Source: Malus domestica (taxonomy: Eukaryota; Streptophyta; Magnoliopsida; Rosales; Rosaceae). From it: a stretch of DNA of 64,000 nt. A program made the position numbers and the translations under genes. The notes under the pieces were generated by a model. That model was not told the DNA's origin. It saw nothing but the letters and a program-made list of their open reading frames with translations, and did no database searches. Numbering within the stretch: position 1 is the first letter of the stretch; each line of letters opens with the position of its first letter. Location: contig NC_091666.1 in NCBI RefSeq assembly GCF_042453785.1, positions 27,672,501-27,736,500 on the forward strand, read 5' to 3'. Below, in pieces: positions 48,444 through 56,460 of the stretch.

Positions 48444-48575
48444 TGTTGATGCACAAAACCAGAGGGGTCTTGGAACAACGTAAATCTGACCGTGAATCTG
48501 CAAGAAAGTAAAGAACACAAGATATATCGTGGTTCACCCTAATGTTTGGGCTACGTCCACACTGATGTTGATTGC

Positions 48576-48925
48576 TGTTGATGCACAAAACCAGAGGTCT
48601 TGGAACAACGTAAATCCGACCGTGAATCTGCAAGAAAGTAAATAACACAAGATGTATCGTGGTTCACCTCAAGGGTTGGGCTACGTCCACACTGATTATG
48701 TATTTATTTGAGAGAGAGAGAGAGCTCAGAGAGTGAGAGCTTTGAGAGGGGGTGAGAGGGCCTAGGAATTGGCCTCCTCTAATTGTGAGGGTGAAGGGTC
48801 CTTTTATAGAATAAAGGCTCCTCACTTATTACATATTTGCCCCTTCCTTTATTACATAATTACATTTGAGTCCCCCGAGTATTTATACGAGGTCTAAATA
48901 CGGCGGCCCTAAGTTGGTATAAACA
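48576..48925 (-). repeat. 3' LTR of the gene-capturing element
   Basis: 350 bp, plus-strand ends tgttgatgcac / gtataaaca. Nearly identical to 52336-52684. Confidence 0.85.
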
Positions 48926-50830
48926 GTAGTCCCCCAAGTCTTCAGTCAAGAGAGTCTTTTGGCTGGAGACTTCAAATTCAGTCAATGTGTGGGCCGAAGT
49001 AACTAGATGCTGTCTTGAACTAATGCTCGATATGAGGCAGTGCTCAATCTGAAATGATGCTCAACTAGAAGTAGCACACGCTGCGATGCTGCTGGGCTTG
49101 TGGCTTATGTTGCCTTGGTTGGCTCGGCTTGTGGCGTTTGAAGGTGAGGGAGTCCCTTTTATAGAATAAGGGCTCACTCCTCAATACATGAATGATGGGC
49201 TAGAGTTGATGCTCTCTAATGATGGTGAGGGAGTCCCTTTTATAGAATAAGGGCTCGCTCCTCAATACATAAATGATGGGTTAGGAGTGATGCTCTCTAA
49301 TGATGGTGAGGGAGTCACTTTTATAGAATAAGGGCTCGCTCCTCAATACATAAATGATGGGTTAAGAGTGATGCTCGCGGCGAGACGGTTGCTCAGCTGG
49401 CGGCAATGCTCTCTAACGAAGGTGAGGGAGACATTTTTATAAAATAAGGACTCGCTCCTCAATACATAAGTGATGGGCTAAGTCCCCCAAGTATTTTTCA
49501 AAAGTGCTCTCTAATGAAAGTGAGGGAGTCCCTTTTATAGAATAAGGGCTCGCTCCTCAATACATAGATAATGGGCTAAGTCCCCCAAGTATTTTTCATG
49601 AGGCCTAGTTGAGGCCCAATATATGGTACATAATGTAGTCCCCCAAGTCTTCGGTCAATAGAGTCTGTTGGCTGGAGACTTCAAATTGAATCCATGTATG
49701 GGCCGAAGTGGCGGTTGTTCGAATGTGGTATTTGTATACCCTGCACTGAAGCTTTGTAGGTGAAGCTTTGCAAGTGAAGCTTTGAAGCTAGAGCTCTGTA
49801 AATGAAGCTTTCGAAGCTGGAATTTTTATAAATGAAGCTTTTGAAGCTAGAGCTCTGTAAATGAAGCTTTTGAAGCTGATTGACATAAGTGATGCTCATG
49901 AATGTTTATGTTGATTGACATGAGTGATGCTCATGGATGTTGTCATGAGTGATGCTCATGAATGTTAACATGAGTGATGCTCATGAATGTTGACACGAAT
50001 GATGGTCATGAATGTTTATGTATGATTGTTATGAGTGATGCTCATGAATGTTTATGTATGAATGACATGAGTAATGCTTATGTATAATTTGGAATACTGG
50101 GCGTACTTTTGATCACCTGGTTGGTGGCATGAAGGAGAGTACGGGTTGTACATTTCATCACCTGGTTGGTGGCATGAATGGCTAGTTGCCAAATGATATT
50201 AGAGTACGGGTTGTACATTTCATCAACTGGTTGGTGGCATGAATGGCTAATTGCCAAATGATATTAGAGTACAGGTTGTACATTTCATCACCTGGTTGGT
50301 GGTAATAGCAGCAGGTTGCCGAATAATTTTGGAGTACTGGGCGTACTTTTGATCACCTGGTTGGTGGCATGAAGGAGAGTACGGGTTGTACATTTCATCA
50401 CCTGGTTGGTGGCATGAATGGCTAGTTGCCAAATGATATTAGAGTACGGGTTGTACATTTCATCACCTGGTCGGTGGCATGAAGATGAGTTCATTCTTCA
50501 CCTAGTTGGTGATAATAGAGGGTCTGGCTCTTTTGGGCATATGGGCTTTCGCCCTCCACATGACATTGTAGCCCATTATTTTGGGCTTTTGTTTTTTTGT
50601 TTTTTTTACCCTCTGATGGGGTTTATACAGATGTATGTGAAAGGTAAGAAAAATAAATTACATCATTCAAAACAAGGGTTTCGACACAAAAGCTTCGACA
50701 GTTGCAGATCGTTGGTGCGTTGCTTTTGCTTTTGCTTTTGTTTTCTGCTTTACTTTTGCTTTTGTTTTCTGCTTTGCTTTTGCGTTGCTTTTTTCCATGA
50801 GCGACTGCTTTGGATATGTGGCTGGATGCC
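48926..50830. repeat. Minisatellite-like tandem arrays inside the gene-capturing element
   Basis: Several distinct arrays follow one another. 49140-49580 has about five units of ggtgagggagtcccttttat-type sequence (unit about 80-110 bp). 49745-49880 has gtgaagctttgaagct-like units of about 20-36 bp. 49885-50080 has atgagtgatgctcatgaatg units. 50095-50480 has cacctggttggtggcatgaa units of about 65 bp, partly in a 245-bp higher-order repeat (50095-50160 against 50335-50400). 50715-50790 has tgcttttgcttttgttttc units. Non-coding. Confidence 0.8.
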
Positions 50831-50940
50831 ATGATTAAGGGCAATATTCCTTAAAGTGATAGCTGCTTTGACAGCTGCTTGGCTTTTCTTAATCTTTTTG
50901 CTCCTCTGTCCATCCATGTTCCCCATCCATGTCTGATGCA

Positions 50941-51060
50941 GTCCTTTAGGCGTAATTCTGCACTGATAATCTCCAAATCCCTCACAGGATCCACAGTATC
51001 ATCAACATGGATGATATCCGGATCTTCAAATGCCCACAGAATGTGAAAGATGCCATCAAC
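50941..51060 (-). pseudogene. Captured fragment: Obg-like ATPase 1 (OLA1/YchF)
   Basis: Forty open codons on the minus strand, from [20 protein letters not shown] through [20 protein letters not shown]. This is a highly conserved stretch just after the G domain core of YchF/OLA1 P-loop ATPases (one Arg to Trp change in the LRAFEDP part). It joins the PTB fragment within a few bases, with no intron. Confidence 0.88.
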
Positions 51061-51062
51061 TG

Positions 51063-51420
51063 CACGGTTTTACCACAGACCTACGCAGGTTCCGAGGATG
51101 AAGCATAATACGAAACCATATTGATGGCCTGGTTTAAGTCTGAGAATTCGACAAATGCCTGATTGCGATTGGGGCCGACAGTACCCTTGGTGTTGACGAT
51201 CTTGCTGAAAGGTTTGCAGAGCTCGATCCGCTTCTCCTCGGCGTACTTCCACGAGAACTTCTCCTCAGAACACTTTCGATGGCGATCGCGTGTACCAGAA
51301 CTGCGGCGTCCCCGATGTCGACATAGGGCGGAGATTGGGTCGGCCAAGTTGCGTATTGAGAGTTAGGGTTTGGGGAAGAGAGAGATTAAAGAGGGATTGG
51401 GGTTAAGGATCCGCCGGAGA
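51063..51420 (-). pseudogene. Captured fragment: polypyrimidine tract-binding protein, 5' UTR to first RRM
   Basis: ATG at 51324 opens MSTSGTPQFWYTRSPSKV, the start of plant PTB1/2-type proteins. A frame change follows, then IELCKPFSKIVNTKGTVGPN and RNQAFVEFSDLNQAINMVSY of the first RNA-recognition motif. A stop TAG (Gln expected) precedes VCGKTV. The upstream 51325-51420 is CT-rich, like a 5' UTR. The RNP-like AFVEF motif is kept. No coding potential remains as a whole protein. Confidence 0.85.
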
Positions 51421-51452
51421 CAGAGAAGGATTGTACTAAATGGGTTCTGCGC

Positions 51453-51641
51453 CTCAAGGATTACTACCACAGAATGCCCGCTCGTGGGGCTATAAGACAT
51501 GCGGACAATGGGTGTACCAATATCAATAGATGAAATCTTGCTTCCTGCAAACGCATCCATTTCAATGATGTAGTTTCCAATGGCGACGGCGATGAGGGTC
51601 TGATGAGGATGAAAGACAGCAGCATGAGGCTGCAACGGTTT
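51453..51641 (-). pseudogene. Captured fragment: WD40 protein of the TPLATE-complex TWD40 type
   Basis: About 63 codons open on the minus strand, beginning KPLQPHAAVFHPHQTLIAVA and containing KISSIDIG and VRMSYSPTSGH, ending VVVILE. This wording is characteristic of the N-terminal WD40 region of the large plant TWD40 endocytic adaptor subunits. No stop within the fragment. The reading frame continues only about 30 residues of unrelated sequence afterwards. Confidence 0.75.
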
Positions 51642-51651
51642 TGAGTTGCGG

Positions 51652-51828
51652 GTCGGTGATGATCGCCACTGTGATATAATCAGGGTCGGCTGTGGAAGAA
51701 AAAACGTGATTGAGGTGCGGCCACGAGCAGGACGAGAGATAGGGTCTCCAGTAGGTGAACATCTAGCCGTAGAGGAGAGTTACCGCCCATATCAGGCAGA
51801 GCGGTTCCGTGAGCTCCACCTGCTTCAT
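51652..51828 (-). pseudogene. Captured fragment: metallophosphoesterase (MPPE1/PGAP5-like) N terminus
   Basis: From ATG 51828 the minus strand reads MKQVELTEPLCLIWAVTLLYG, a stop (TAG where Glu is likely), then MFTYWRPYLSSCSWPHL and, further on, DYITVAIITDPQL. This looks like the N-terminal membrane anchor and first metal-site motif of a plant PGAP5/MPPE1-type calcineurin-like phosphoesterase. About 60 residues, with leader-like sequence before the ATG. It joins directly to the WD40 fragment. Identification is by memory of the family and moderate. Confidence 0.55.
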
Positions 51829-52315
51829 CTGTTCCCTTCCTGTTTTCCGTTGCTTGACTTAGAGAGCACATTTGGGCCTAAATTCCCATCCGTCTTTGGT
51901 AAATCTCATTAGGTGGATTTTACTGTCATTCCAAATGAAGGCATCTTAGCAGATACAGACAGATAGCGTTTAATCACTTCGGTGTGGCGCTGGTGCAGCG
52001 TATGTCGTGGTGCAGACGCGAGTACATCCACATGGTGAACAACGACTTCACGCCTGATCTCCGTTAAATGGCAGGAGAGGCGGTTCGGTATCTGCAACCG
52101 CACCACACTTGACGCTGCTCAGGCTAATCTTTCTGGAATGACTGAAGGATCTGAGATGGGTTGGTGAGGAGAGAGAAGAAACTGTAGTTAAGTTTAGGTG
52201 TTTTTATTTTTGCATTTTAGAGAGATGGGTTCTGCAAATTCACAATGGACCGTGATGAGGTCTCGCGGTGGTGAGATGAAAAAATGAAAGAGAATCGACA
52301 TAGCTTTTCGTGTCG
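51829..52315 (-). other. Interior of the gene-capturing element, unassigned
   Basis: Just inside the primer-binding site. It holds a 65-codon minus-strand frame (52106-51909) that I do not recognise. It may be a fifth captured fragment or leader sequence. Confidence 0.4.
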
Positions 52316-52335
52316 ATTCCCAAGACGGCGCCAAA
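52316..52335 (-). other. Primer-binding-type site
   Basis: Minus strand reads tttggcgccgtcttgggaat directly after the LTR end. TGGCGCC-starting sites at this place are frequent in plant gypsy-type elements. Confidence 0.65.
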
Positions 52336-52684
52336 TGTTGATGCACAAAATCGGAGGTCTTGGAACAACGTAAATCCAATTGTGAATGTACAAGAAAGTA
52401 AATAACACAAGATGTATCGTGGTTCACCTCAAGGTTTGGGCTACGTCCACACTGATTATGTATTTATTTGAGGGAGAGAGAGCTCTGAGAGTGAGAGCTT
52501 TGAGAGGGGGTGAGATGGCCTAGGAATTGGTCTCCTCTAATTGTGAGGGTGATGGGTCCTTTTATAGAATAAAGGCTCTTCACTTATTACATATTTGCCC
52601 TTTCTTTTATTACATAATTACATTTGAGTCCCCCGAGTATTTATACGAGGTCTAAATACGGAGGCCCTAAGTATGGTATAAACA
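52336..52684 (-). repeat. 5' LTR of the gene-capturing element
   Basis: 349 bp, with the same ends as the 3' LTR. Followed inward on the minus strand by the primer-binding-type sequence tggcgccgtcttggga (52335-52317). Confidence 0.85.
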
Positions 52685-53144
52685 ATTGTATTTTTTTGTA
52701 ACTATATGTATAGATTACAAGTGTGAGGGGAAGTCCCCCAGAGAAAGAGAGAGTTTGAGAGAGCCTCTCTGTTTGTGAGGCTTGTGGCTTTGTATGTGAG
52801 GATGAGAGCCTGAGGATTGTGAGGGTGAGGAGGCCCCTTTATAGACTAAGGGCTCCTCCCCTTTTACATGAATCATGGGCTCAATGTCTGGAAGCCCAAG
52901 TAACGAGGTCCAATATAATATGGTACCAACAGTAATCCCCCAAGTCTTCAGTCAAGAGAGTCTTTTGGCTGGAGACTTGAAATTCAGTCCATGTGTGGGC
53001 CGAAGTAACTAGATGTCGTCTAGAACTAATACTCGATATGAGGCGGTGCTCAATGTGAAATGATGCTCAACTAGAAGTAGCACATGTTGCGGGGCTGCTC
53101 GGCTTGTGGCTTATATTGCCTTGGTTGGCTCGGCTTGCGGCGTT

Positions 53145-53763
53145 GAAGGTGAGGGAGTCCCTTTTATAGAATAAGGGCTCGCTCCTCATTACATAAATGA
53201 TGGGCTAGAGTTGATGCTCGCGGCGAAGCGGTTGCTCAGCAGGCGGCGATGCTCTCTAATGATGGTGAGAGAGTCCCTTTTATAGAATAAGGGCTCGTCC
53301 ATCAATATATAAGTGATAGGTTAGAGTTGATGCTCGCGACGATGCGGTTGCTTAACAGGCGGCGATGCTCTTTAATGACGGTAAGGGAGTCCCTTTTATA
53401 GAATAAGGGCTCGCTCATCAATACGTGAATAATGGGTGATCTTTAATGAAAATGAGGGAGTCCCTTTTATAGAATAAAGGCTCGCTCCTCAATACATAAG
53501 TGATGGGCTAGAGTTGATGCTCGCGGCGAGACGGTTGCTCAGCAGGCAGCGATGCTCTCTAATGATGGTGAGGGAATCATTTTTATAGAATAATGGCTCG
53601 CTTCTCAATACATAAGTGATGGGCTAAGAACGATGCTTGCGGCGAGACGGTTGCTCAGCTGGCGGCGATGCTCTCTAATGATGGTTATAGAATAAGGGCT
53701 CGCTCTTCAATACATAAGTGATGGGCTAAGAGCGATGTTTGCGGCGAGACGGTTGCTCAGCTG
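53145..53763. repeat. Tandem repeat array of the older element
   Basis: Six to seven units of about 85-130 bp with core agtcccttttatagaataag ... gctcgctcctcaatacataa, shared with 49140-49580. Confidence 0.8.
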
Positions 53764-54293
53764 GCATGTTAGTTTAGAATGATTTCACACCTGGCTTACA
53801 TTTACTATTGCTGAGATATTGTTGCATGGCATGCTTCTGTTTTCACAGCCCTGGTACATTCATTTACGTATTATGTAGTATTATTTTTTGGAAACTATAT
53901 GAGTTTTACAGTGAGGGGTTATTACTTTCAGAAAAGATAAATGTGTTTTCTAAAGCTTTGTTTTTGCCCACTCACCCTTCTGTTTTTCGCCCCTCCAGGT
54001 TTTAGTTGCTGAGCTTCCGTATCGACAAGGATTCTTGGAATATCCCAGTATAAATGGCTACCTATGATGGTATAATCCTTATCTTACCTTACTGTACTTT
54101 ACTTATGCTCTGTAATCACGTGTGAAATGGGTTCATTCCCGTTCACAGCGCACTCCTATATTTAGGCACTTTTAAGTTTAAATTGATTCACATTTTCCAC
54201 ATTACTACACTTTATGGCTTCGTCACCTTCCATGTGTCAGCCATCACAGCTTAATTCGGAGTCCTAGTGGACATTCCGGGTCGAGGTGTGTCA
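53764..54293 (+). repeat. 3' fragment of a Tekay-type LTR
   Basis: Similar to the last 570 bases of the 5' LTR at 33975-34551 (shared ttttgcccactcacc, the cgcccctc...aggtt stretch, and gtcgaggtgtgtca at the end), but clearly diverged. Its left side is cut by the older nested element. Confidence 0.75.
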
Positions 54294-55537: not shown

Positions 55538-56460
55538 TCATCTAGCCTTATCAGCCTCAAATTTCGCCATTTCCCGCACCAAAGTCAATTCACTATGGCG
55601 AGTAAGTTCTTCCATGTACTTTGCATAATCATGCTTGGAAGCACTTCTTTTTCTCTTTGAAGCCTTCTTACCTTGAGGCCTAATTGGATTACGGGTCGAA
55701 CCCGACACTTGTTCAGGGATGGGCGTTTCGGGCACTTCTTCTGCATCATCTTCATGCGAGCCATTATCAGGTGCAGAGTATAGTGGGGTGCTGTTCATGA
55801 TAACTTCTGGACCGACAGGCACAACTCTGAATTTAGGACAATCTTTGACAATATTCCAACATTCCCACCGGTTGAATGATTTATTTTTGCTTTTGGTTTT
55901 GGCACCATACCAAGCTTGTGCTTGAATTAGCTACACAATGGGGGAGAAGAAATAATTATAATCAAAGTAGGTAACAAATAAATAATACAAACAAATAAAT
56001 ATAATTAAAGTAGGTAACAAATAAATAATACAAACAAAAAATTATAATCAAAGTATGTAACAAATAAATAATACAAACAAATAATTATAATTAAAGTAGG
56101 TAACAAATAAATAATACAAACAAATAATTACAATGTAAATTTGGGTATAGTACAAACAAATAAATAATATATTGTTACATGATCCGTGTAATTTTCCCCA
56201 CTTCAAAGATTACTACTAACTTGTGCCAAGGCGTCTCTCCAAATACTAAACGATTGGCTAAATAATTTCCAACGACTAGACATCGATTCTTTAGTTCTAC
56301 TCCCACCCATTTTTTCAAGATAATTGGTATGAATAAGACTCCACATTTCTCGCAATTGCATCTCATTACCCGTACGCGAACTATGAGTAACTTCAACCCA
56401 ACTAGTAGACAATGCAACATCTTCAAGAAGCGTCCAATTCGTACCTGCATCAGTAGTCAT
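55538..56460 (-). CDS. Transposon-borne Myb/SANT-like, NAM-associated-type protein
   Basis: Two exons, 56460-56221 and 55930-55538 (633 nt, 210 residues). The donor is cacaa|gttagt and the acceptor tgtag|ctaattc. Exon 1 begins MTTDAGTNWTLLEDVALSTS, a trihelix/SANT-like start (NWT..ED..L...W..V), and continues with RTKESMSSRWKLFSQSFS. Exon 2 has QAQAWYGAKTKSKNKSFNRW followed by ECWNIVKDCPKFRV, typical of plant proteins with the NAM-associated C-terminal domain (often mislabelled glutathione S-transferase T3-like). A nuclear-signal-like GKKASKRKRSASK follows. This protein class accompanies PIF/Harbinger-type elements as the DNA-binding partner of the transposase. The tail is short (ends FEADKAR) compared with longer relatives. 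The frame is open, so it could be expressed. Confidence 0.72.
55955..56165. repeat. Tandem repeat in the intron of the transposon gene
   Basis: About four to five units of 45-52 bp with core gtaggtaacaaataaataat acaaacaaat. It lies wholly within the 290-bp intron. Confidence 0.8.

Follow-up and report, generated by a model that had tools for sequence, protein, structure and literature searches.

The window analysed here, a stretch of 64,000 nucleotides, contains on its minus strand an LTR retrotransposon of 4.1 kb (48576–52684, LTR to LTR), the interior of which carries eight pieces of host sequence, seven from recognisable genes and one from a likely gene. Judging from the sequences, it is probable that pieces copied from host transcripts by reverse transcription have replaced the interior of this non-autonomous element, through serial template switching among element and host RNAs, together with recombination between members of the family. 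An earlier sequence-only reading of the window had described an element of this kind with four captured genes; the observation is confirmed overall and proves larger than first described.

Structure of the element

All features are on the minus strand unless the plus strand is given. The 5' LTR (52336–52684) and the 3' LTR (48576–48925) end in TG...CA and differ at 17 of 348 aligned columns (94.6% identity, K2P 0.051). The bounds of the element given in the sequence-only reading are exact; calling the 350-bp copies near-identical was generous. The 5-mers flanking the element, ATTGC and ATTGT, match at four of five positions, forming an imperfect 5-bp target duplication. A primer-binding-type site of the TGGCGCC type, TGGCGCCGTCTTGGGA (52318–52333), follows the 5' LTR and TT, and a G-rich polypurine-tract-like site in sense, GAAGACTTGGGGGACTAC (48926–48943), lies just before the 3' LTR. 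Both are recognised by sequence resemblance. An untranslated leader common to the family occupies 52226–52335, and the matches of more distant members start here. The 3' tail (48926–50676) contains several short-tandem-repeat arrays and, among the matches listed, has counterparts in many fetched family members.

As previously claimed, no gag or pol domain is found by Pfam in the 16 frames of the element scanned, and the three plus-strand (antisense) frames scanned give no Pfam domain at all. Pfam matches on window frames are few, and the identities of the pieces are settled by their genomic parents. The paired direct LTRs, the primer-binding and polypurine sites, the target duplication, and the absence of gag and pol from the scanned frames identify a non-autonomous LTR retrotransposon.

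The flanks indicate that the element is inserted into an older related copy. The left flank (48444–48575), the insertion target, is part of that copy's LTR; 48444–48566 aligns with LTR positions 48576–48696 (BLAST, 92.7%), and the last five bases are the ATTGC of the target duplication. The right flank (52685–53765) begins with ATTGT of the duplication and comprises what is left of the LTR, which is assigned from its position and a weak similarity and ends near 52920, and the tail (52921–53765), in which 52921–53219 matches 48915–49214 (BLAST, 92.7%).

Captured host pieces and intron removal

Parents were sought by DNA search of the window's own, apple-like genome with up to 40 candidates scored, and the piece lists are therefore lower bounds. 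The eight pieces occupy 50943–52176, a span of 1.23 kb rather than the 0.9 kb stated earlier; six are in sense and two, on the plus strand, are antisense to the element. From the 5' side, the first is a sense piece of a Rieske-domain gene (52051–52176; C8:3861114-3861239, 90%; PF00355, 5e-10), which we take to be the transit-peptide region of its gene. It is followed by an antisense pectate lyase piece (51962–52053, plus strand; C1:21401854, C7:24375466, and C13:41576474; PF00544, 8e-20). The third, also antisense (51857–51965, plus strand), is the one from a likely gene, a C3/C11 pair here called gene7; its 51857–51868 part is assigned through relatives, it has an 88-nt internal deletion, and its parent gives no Pfam match. 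The fourth, in sense, covers the 5' leader of an MPPE1/PGAP5-like phosphoesterase gene together with a portion of its exon 1 (51642–51855; C9:13884126-13884340, 87%), the parent exon matching Metallophos with an E value of 0.0078, under Pfam's cut-off.

The next piece (51452–51650, sense, one intron removed) has parents at C2:14031027-14031615 and C15:24663076-24663816 and a third match on C14; the gene name TWD40 is our assumption. A 36-bp sense piece of the 5' leader of a bZIP gene (51419–51454) matches C5:11134487-11134522 at 34 of 36 positions, with a bZIP Pfam domain downstream of the locus, and is presumably a uORF of that gene. It is separated by a 15-nt filler (51404–51418), which matches neither parent in the junction table, from a sense piece of a PTB RNA-binding protein gene including the 5' leader, with its intron removed (51063–51403; C17:3822389-3823036 and C9:3434515-3435178); the PTB match of this piece in the PDB is weak (best E value 0.0023). 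The last is a sense OLA1 piece from which one intron is removed (50943–51067; C5:39539277 and C10:36361460; PDB 7y9i, 1.1e-16). The adjoining 50878–50942 finds no support as an additional OLA1 exon. The four fragments named in the sequence-only reading (MPPE1, TWD40, PTB, and OLA1) are thus all present, with genomic parents and in the element's direction, whereas the Rieske, pectate lyase, C3/C11, and bZIP-leader pieces had been overlooked, and the claim that all fragments run with the element fails for the pectate lyase and C3/C11 pieces.

In the parents, the matched exons are separated by 305 nt for PTB, 389 nt for TWD40, and 352 nt for OLA1, each gap having GT-AG ends. The intron is absent from each of these three pieces, the only window pieces that span one, and cutting at GT-AG indicates that they derive from spliced RNA. 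The MPPE1 piece is uninformative in this respect, since it lies inside exon 1. No kept intron is found in the window pieces able to show one (three of three aligned to parents), and the proposed lack of introns holds for these pieces. The likeness to Bs1, in the sense of a transduction of several cellular mRNAs, gains support from this threefold intron loss. Among relatives, intron loss extends to two introns of MPPE1, three or more of a C16 gene, and one of an NFXL1-like gene. Two further gaps were not accepted as introns: that at C9:1363297 in the C5 sibling lies between CCTG direct repeats and lacks GT-AG ends, and in L042 a NUP62-like gap falls short of a clean intron and is left out of the count.

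Relatives and the likely order of acquisition

The genome contains 4,622 LTR-PBS junctions of the element's type (up to three mismatches). Relatives have the same LTR, leader, and tail with other mosaics between them, and these mosaics and the junctions support the earlier suggestion of a gene-shuffling family. The relatives form a nested series, in which 5' pieces and identical joins are held in common and different pieces lie 3' of them. The join between Rieske (1626) and pectate lyase (846) recurs, within one base, at 8 of the 20 loci compared, which amount to seven copies (L025 and L034 being one). In L040, the Rieske piece runs to 1673 and pectate lyase is missing; in L037, pectate lyase continues to 539, while the window element leaves it at 755. 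The C5 sibling has pieces 1–7 and the 88-nt deletion as in the window, with four other pieces in place of OLA1; it carries at least 11 pieces, the source being recognised for all but four. At least six pieces are present in L042, which was chosen by its leader/LTR match. L010 has OLA1 with additional 5' sequence. OLA1-like short stretches occur in 25 of the 41 matches listed, those of the aligned relatives lacking 4 bp, and the history of OLA1 is therefore more complex than a single recent capture.

Nineteen parents were mapped, and a strand was assigned for 15, of which 13 are sense and two antisense, several strands depending on assumed gene identities. Among the frames of nine members, Pfam matches 6 of 30 in sense (two of the six above Pfam's cut-off) and 2 of 29 in antisense, namely the L037 pectate lyase piece and one under the cut-off. 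The sense scan comprised 29 of 36 frames of at least 70 aa plus one joined frame, and the antisense scan 29 of 31; L014 has no sense frame of that length. Eight of the 20 loci (L013, L015–L020, and L044) have no match to the 19 parents except low-complexity stretches; matches of that sort, which link L010, L016, and L044 with the Rieske and C9 loci, were not counted. For L013, L015–L018, and L044, the mosaic reading depends on the Pfam scan and is put forward as a weaker one. The relatives suggest that fragments were added stepwise and swapped. The likely order of gain is Rieske, then pectate lyase, then C3/C11 and MPPE1, then TWD40, bZIP, and PTB, and then either OLA1 or the four other pieces.

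Proposed mechanism of capture and known systems

Microhomology of 3–9 bp is present at five of the seven host-host joins (3, 4, 9, 3, and 5 bp, sum 24). When these parent pairs are joined at random, the identity averages 0.71 bp, and none of 20,000 simulated sets reached a sum of 24; the simulation covers these five joins, bZIP/PTB (filler) and gene7/MPPE1 being left out. PTB joins OLA1 at CACGG, two modules that occur separately in other members as far as these were fetched. In the template-switching account, proteins of an autonomous relative would package the element RNA together with host mRNAs. Minus-strand synthesis would begin on the 3' tail of the element, jump at short identities to one or more mRNAs, and return to the element RNA within a previously captured piece. 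The part 5' of the return point would be kept and the 3' interior replaced, resulting in a nested series. Copy-choice between co-packaged members may further reshuffle modules, here from PTB to OLA1 at CACGG. The PTB/bZIP join, with filler instead of microhomology, and the gene7/MPPE1 join count against this account. Simple switching onto mRNA is also insufficient for the two antisense pieces, which span no tested intron and would need antisense RNA or a switch in plus-strand synthesis.

Alternatively, cDNA pieces may have been put into integrated copies by double-strand-break repair, with filler capture at microhomologies, and then transcribed and amplified. The microhomology, the 15-nt filler, and the antisense pieces fit such end-joining, and the accessible text of one study gives a precedent in mouse zygotes, where breaks are repaired with reverse-transcribed spliced mRNA (PMC4516963). 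However, repair predicts random strands and random sites, whereas 13 of the 15 strand-assigned parents are sense and the nested series replaces the 3' interior while keeping 5' modules; we consider this explanation unlikely. Read-through of separate processed pseudogenes that landed side by side in or beside an element is very improbable: the genome has retrocopies, for example a PTB cDNA in another element, but the pieces here lie edge to edge or share a few bases, with microhomology, and their set alters step by step from one relative to another, and the inspected joins have no poly(A) tract. A Helitron, Pack-MULE, or other gene-capturing DNA transposon nested in the LTR element is extremely improbable, for although Helitrons and Pack-MULEs carry fragments of many host genes in the available text of PMC13317346, they would keep the introns lost at GT-AG in three of three testable window pieces, and partial piece sets in relatives adjoin the same LTR and leader, so that the mosaic moved within the LTR element.

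Beyond the template-switching origin of this one element, a broader reading is evenly poised, namely that a transcript-shuffling system is running, in which most of the thousands of members would have their own spliced-RNA mosaic, each round would replace the 3' interior and recombine modules, and the lineage would keep building chimeras of several genes with a promoter-bearing LTR at their flank. Should the members sampled be representative, there would be consequences for gene annotation, for small-RNA silencing of parents, and for how chimeric genes arise in pome fruits.

Bs1 and soybean TRIMs are known examples of transduction by LTR elements; neither so many pieces nor a record of their accretion was found in the literature searched, and the search, which covered titles and the starts of abstracts with most subscription papers outside its reach, yielded no apple LTR family of such a kind. 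The apple repeat HODOR (KX869746), by its description as far as accessible, differs in length, being 9.2–9.7 kb against 4.1 kb here. Of the Retand/Tat-type Gypsy elements, some of which are non-autonomous, about half carry arrays of tandem repeats ahead of the 3' LTR according to the text available (PMC11963269). The present element resembles them in architecture, through these arrays and non-autonomy; no RT is found in the frames scanned. The Onsen family of Arabidopsis undergoes intra-family recombination in transposition bursts (PMC5668417, accessible part); exchange there is between element copies, whereas here host transcripts enter too. LTR elements captured 672 and 1,343 host genes in rice and sorghum, respectively, and the accessible part of that report describes no stepwise many-piece accretion within one family (PMC3726574). 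Gene-carrying TRIMs, of which the available text counts 30 elements of 1,172–1,449 bp in seven subfamilies of soybean and Medicago, including GmaRetroS15 of soybean with exon-only fragments of three genes (PMC4717578), are likewise non-autonomous with exon-only pieces, but the present element is 4.1 kb long, has a tail of tandem repeats, and carries a larger number of pieces.

Bs1 of maize, as far as the sources are accessible, is an LTR element with segments of three host genes (PMC13317346), exons only (PMC4717578). By description, the window element is alike in carrying several spliced host pieces, three of eight; it differs in having eight pieces (11 in the sibling), two of them antisense, a nested series of relatives from which the sequence of gains can be read, and 4,622 junctions of its type. 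Captures of one to three genes by plant LTR elements are known, but usually it can no longer be seen in what order the steps took place. In the present case, a single genome preserves likely intermediates, which makes it possible to measure directly how several genes are captured, in which direction along the element this proceeds, and what signatures template switching leaves. The family would be an RNA-level counterpart of Pack-MULEs, provided that the members sampled are representative.

Element structure and host gene pieces

The search space was the window's own genome (651 Mb, 19 contigs), in which the window occupies C6:27672501–27736500. Fragments could therefore be compared one by one with the loci they came from instead of with distant proteins. 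C5 and C10, C9 and C17, and C2 and C15 are taken here as homoeologous pairs of contigs. The LTRs of the minus-strand element (48576–48925 and 52336–52684) are 94.6% identical by BLAST, with 17 differences in 348 columns (K2P 0.051). In the minus orientation, the LTR begins with TGTTTATACC and ends with GCATCAACA, a primer-site-type sequence, TGGCGCCGTCTTGGGA, is read two bases past the LTR end, and a G-rich tract directly adjoins the 3′ LTR. The bases flanking the element are ATTGC and ATTGT, and the element lies within the LTR of an older related copy, the tail of which extends to 53765. Pfam detected no gag or pol domain in the 16 frames of the element scanned. A tandem array (43 bp period, 92–94% likeness between copies) is located at 55947–56139.

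The element contains eight host pieces, each about 87% to 99% identical to its best parent. From the 5′ end, they correspond to a Rieske-domain gene (parent on C8), a pectate lyase (antisense; C1, C7, and C13), a likely gene (antisense; C3 and C11), an MPPE1-like gene (C9), a gene assumed to be of the TWD40 type (C2, C15, and C14), a bZIP leader (C5) presumably containing a uORF, PTB (C17 and C9), and OLA1 (C5 and C10). The Rieske, pectate lyase, and bZIP names are based on Pfam matches of the parents, the MPPE1-like name on a weak one, the OLA1 name on a PDB match, and the PTB name on a weak PDB match. Pfam gave no match for the C3/C11 piece, which is regarded as a gene since an open frame is preserved at this place on both homoeologues. 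A stop-free 138-codon frame (51363–51779, minus strand), whose sole Pfam match has an E value of 0.23, spans the MPPE1, TWD40, bZIP, and PTB pieces.

Intron loss and joins between pieces

The sequence-only reading saw no intron in the fragments, and this holds for all three window pieces that span one, while the other five cross no tested intron. The matched exons are 305, 389, and 352 nt apart in the PTB, TWD40, and OLA1 parents, respectively, with ends fitting GT-AG, and are joined without a gap in the element, which marks these pieces as coming from RNA. MPPE1 exons 1–3 are likewise continuous in the relatives L025, L024, and L034 (two introns absent). The locus L010 carries five exons of a C16 gene and lacks the introns between them, of which at least three out of four have clear GT-AG ends, and a piece of L042, a locus fetched for its leader/LTR match, lacks an intron of about 100 nt. 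Several pieces, namely MPPE1, PTB, and bZIP in the window and a putative NAC piece in L042, lie, or start, in the parent's 5′ leader, as would be expected if reverse transcriptase reached the mRNA end before jumping.

At five joins, both parents and the window agree over 3, 4, 9, 3, and 5 bp, the 9-bp overlap containing one later change in the window. Simulated random joins of the same parents overlap by 0.71 bp on average, and the sum stayed below the observed 24 in all 20,000 simulated sets. These statistics cover the five joins apart from PTB/bZIP, where 15 nt of filler match neither parent, and the host-host join of MPPE1 with the piece called gene7.

Likely order of acquisition among relatives

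The comparison set twenty loci (19 copies, L025 and L034 being the same copy) against 19 parent loci. Within the stretches compared, L040 and L041 carry Rieske sequence but no pectate lyase, and L037–L039 add pectate lyase (308 bp in L037). In L024, L025, and L034, pectate lyase is left at the window's exit point, followed by the C3/C11 piece and MPPE1. A sibling copy on C5 (LTRs 97.2% identical) adds TWD40, bZIP, and PTB and shares an 88-nt deletion with the window element. After PTB, this sibling has four pieces absent from the window (parents on C9, C2, C15, and C16, the last presumably a CYP51-like gene), and the window element leaves PTB at CACGG and enters OLA1. Such a nested series is the pattern that repeated template switching during 3′-to-5′ copying would produce. 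OLA1 in L010 includes sequence further 5′ than in the window, which suggests that two lineages recombined to give the window element. In eight of the 20 loci (L013, L015–L020, and L044), none of the 19 parents matched beyond low-complexity stretches.

A short OLA1-like stretch (50904–50980) recurs in 25 of the 41 listed matches in the genome, and the relatives that were aligned show a 4-bp deletion in it. This hints at an early OLA1 capture that was later amplified, with a copy in the window that has decayed less or been renewed. L002 (C16:15871164–15874403), L003 (C13), and L004 (C12), with L058 and L059, represent a different LTR-flanked element of about 9.5 kb, with 317-bp direct repeats that are 100% identical and may extend beyond the fetched stretch. 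Its five PTB blocks (96–100% identity) lie end to end but are apart in the C17 gene, and over 3.2 kb L003 matches L002 at 99.88% identity and L004 at 99.85%. The element appears to have captured PTB on a separate, recent occasion.

Breadth of the family and known systems

A family of gene-shuffling elements had been proposed from the sequence as a possibility, and relatives with other captured gene sets do occur in the genome. Junctions between the LTR and the primer-binding-type site number 4,622 (2,328 + 2,294) with up to 3 mismatches, against 0 for the control, and may include autonomous relatives. L042 has six pieces; five, which we take to be NAC, SDS22-like, NUP62-like, NFXL1-like (the intron-lacking piece), and mitochondrial L29-like, are all sense, and the sixth has no name. 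Among frames of nine members, 6 of 30 sense frames, spread over five of the nine, have host Pfam matches (mitochondrial carrier twice, NPH3, P450, WD40, and PPR; two above Pfam's own cut-off), as do 2 of 29 antisense frames (the L037 pectate lyase piece, above the cut-off, and one below). Counting every parent mapped, 13 lie in sense and two in antisense, and four, all from pieces in relatives, have no assigned strand. That most members carry mosaics is an extrapolation from a small sample, part of which was picked for its resemblance to captured sequence.

Searches of the openly available literature turned up no description of this family, which does not prove that none exists. Tallies have been made of host genes captured by LTR elements in rice and sorghum (PMC3726574), abnormal template switching is described for plant LTR elements (PMC13317346), and so is recombination within an LTR element family (PMC5668417). 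Exon-only capture of host genes is described for Bs1 (PMC13317346, PMC4717578) and, with three genes, for soybean TRIMs (PMC4717578), and the window element resembles both in its three pieces that span an intron.
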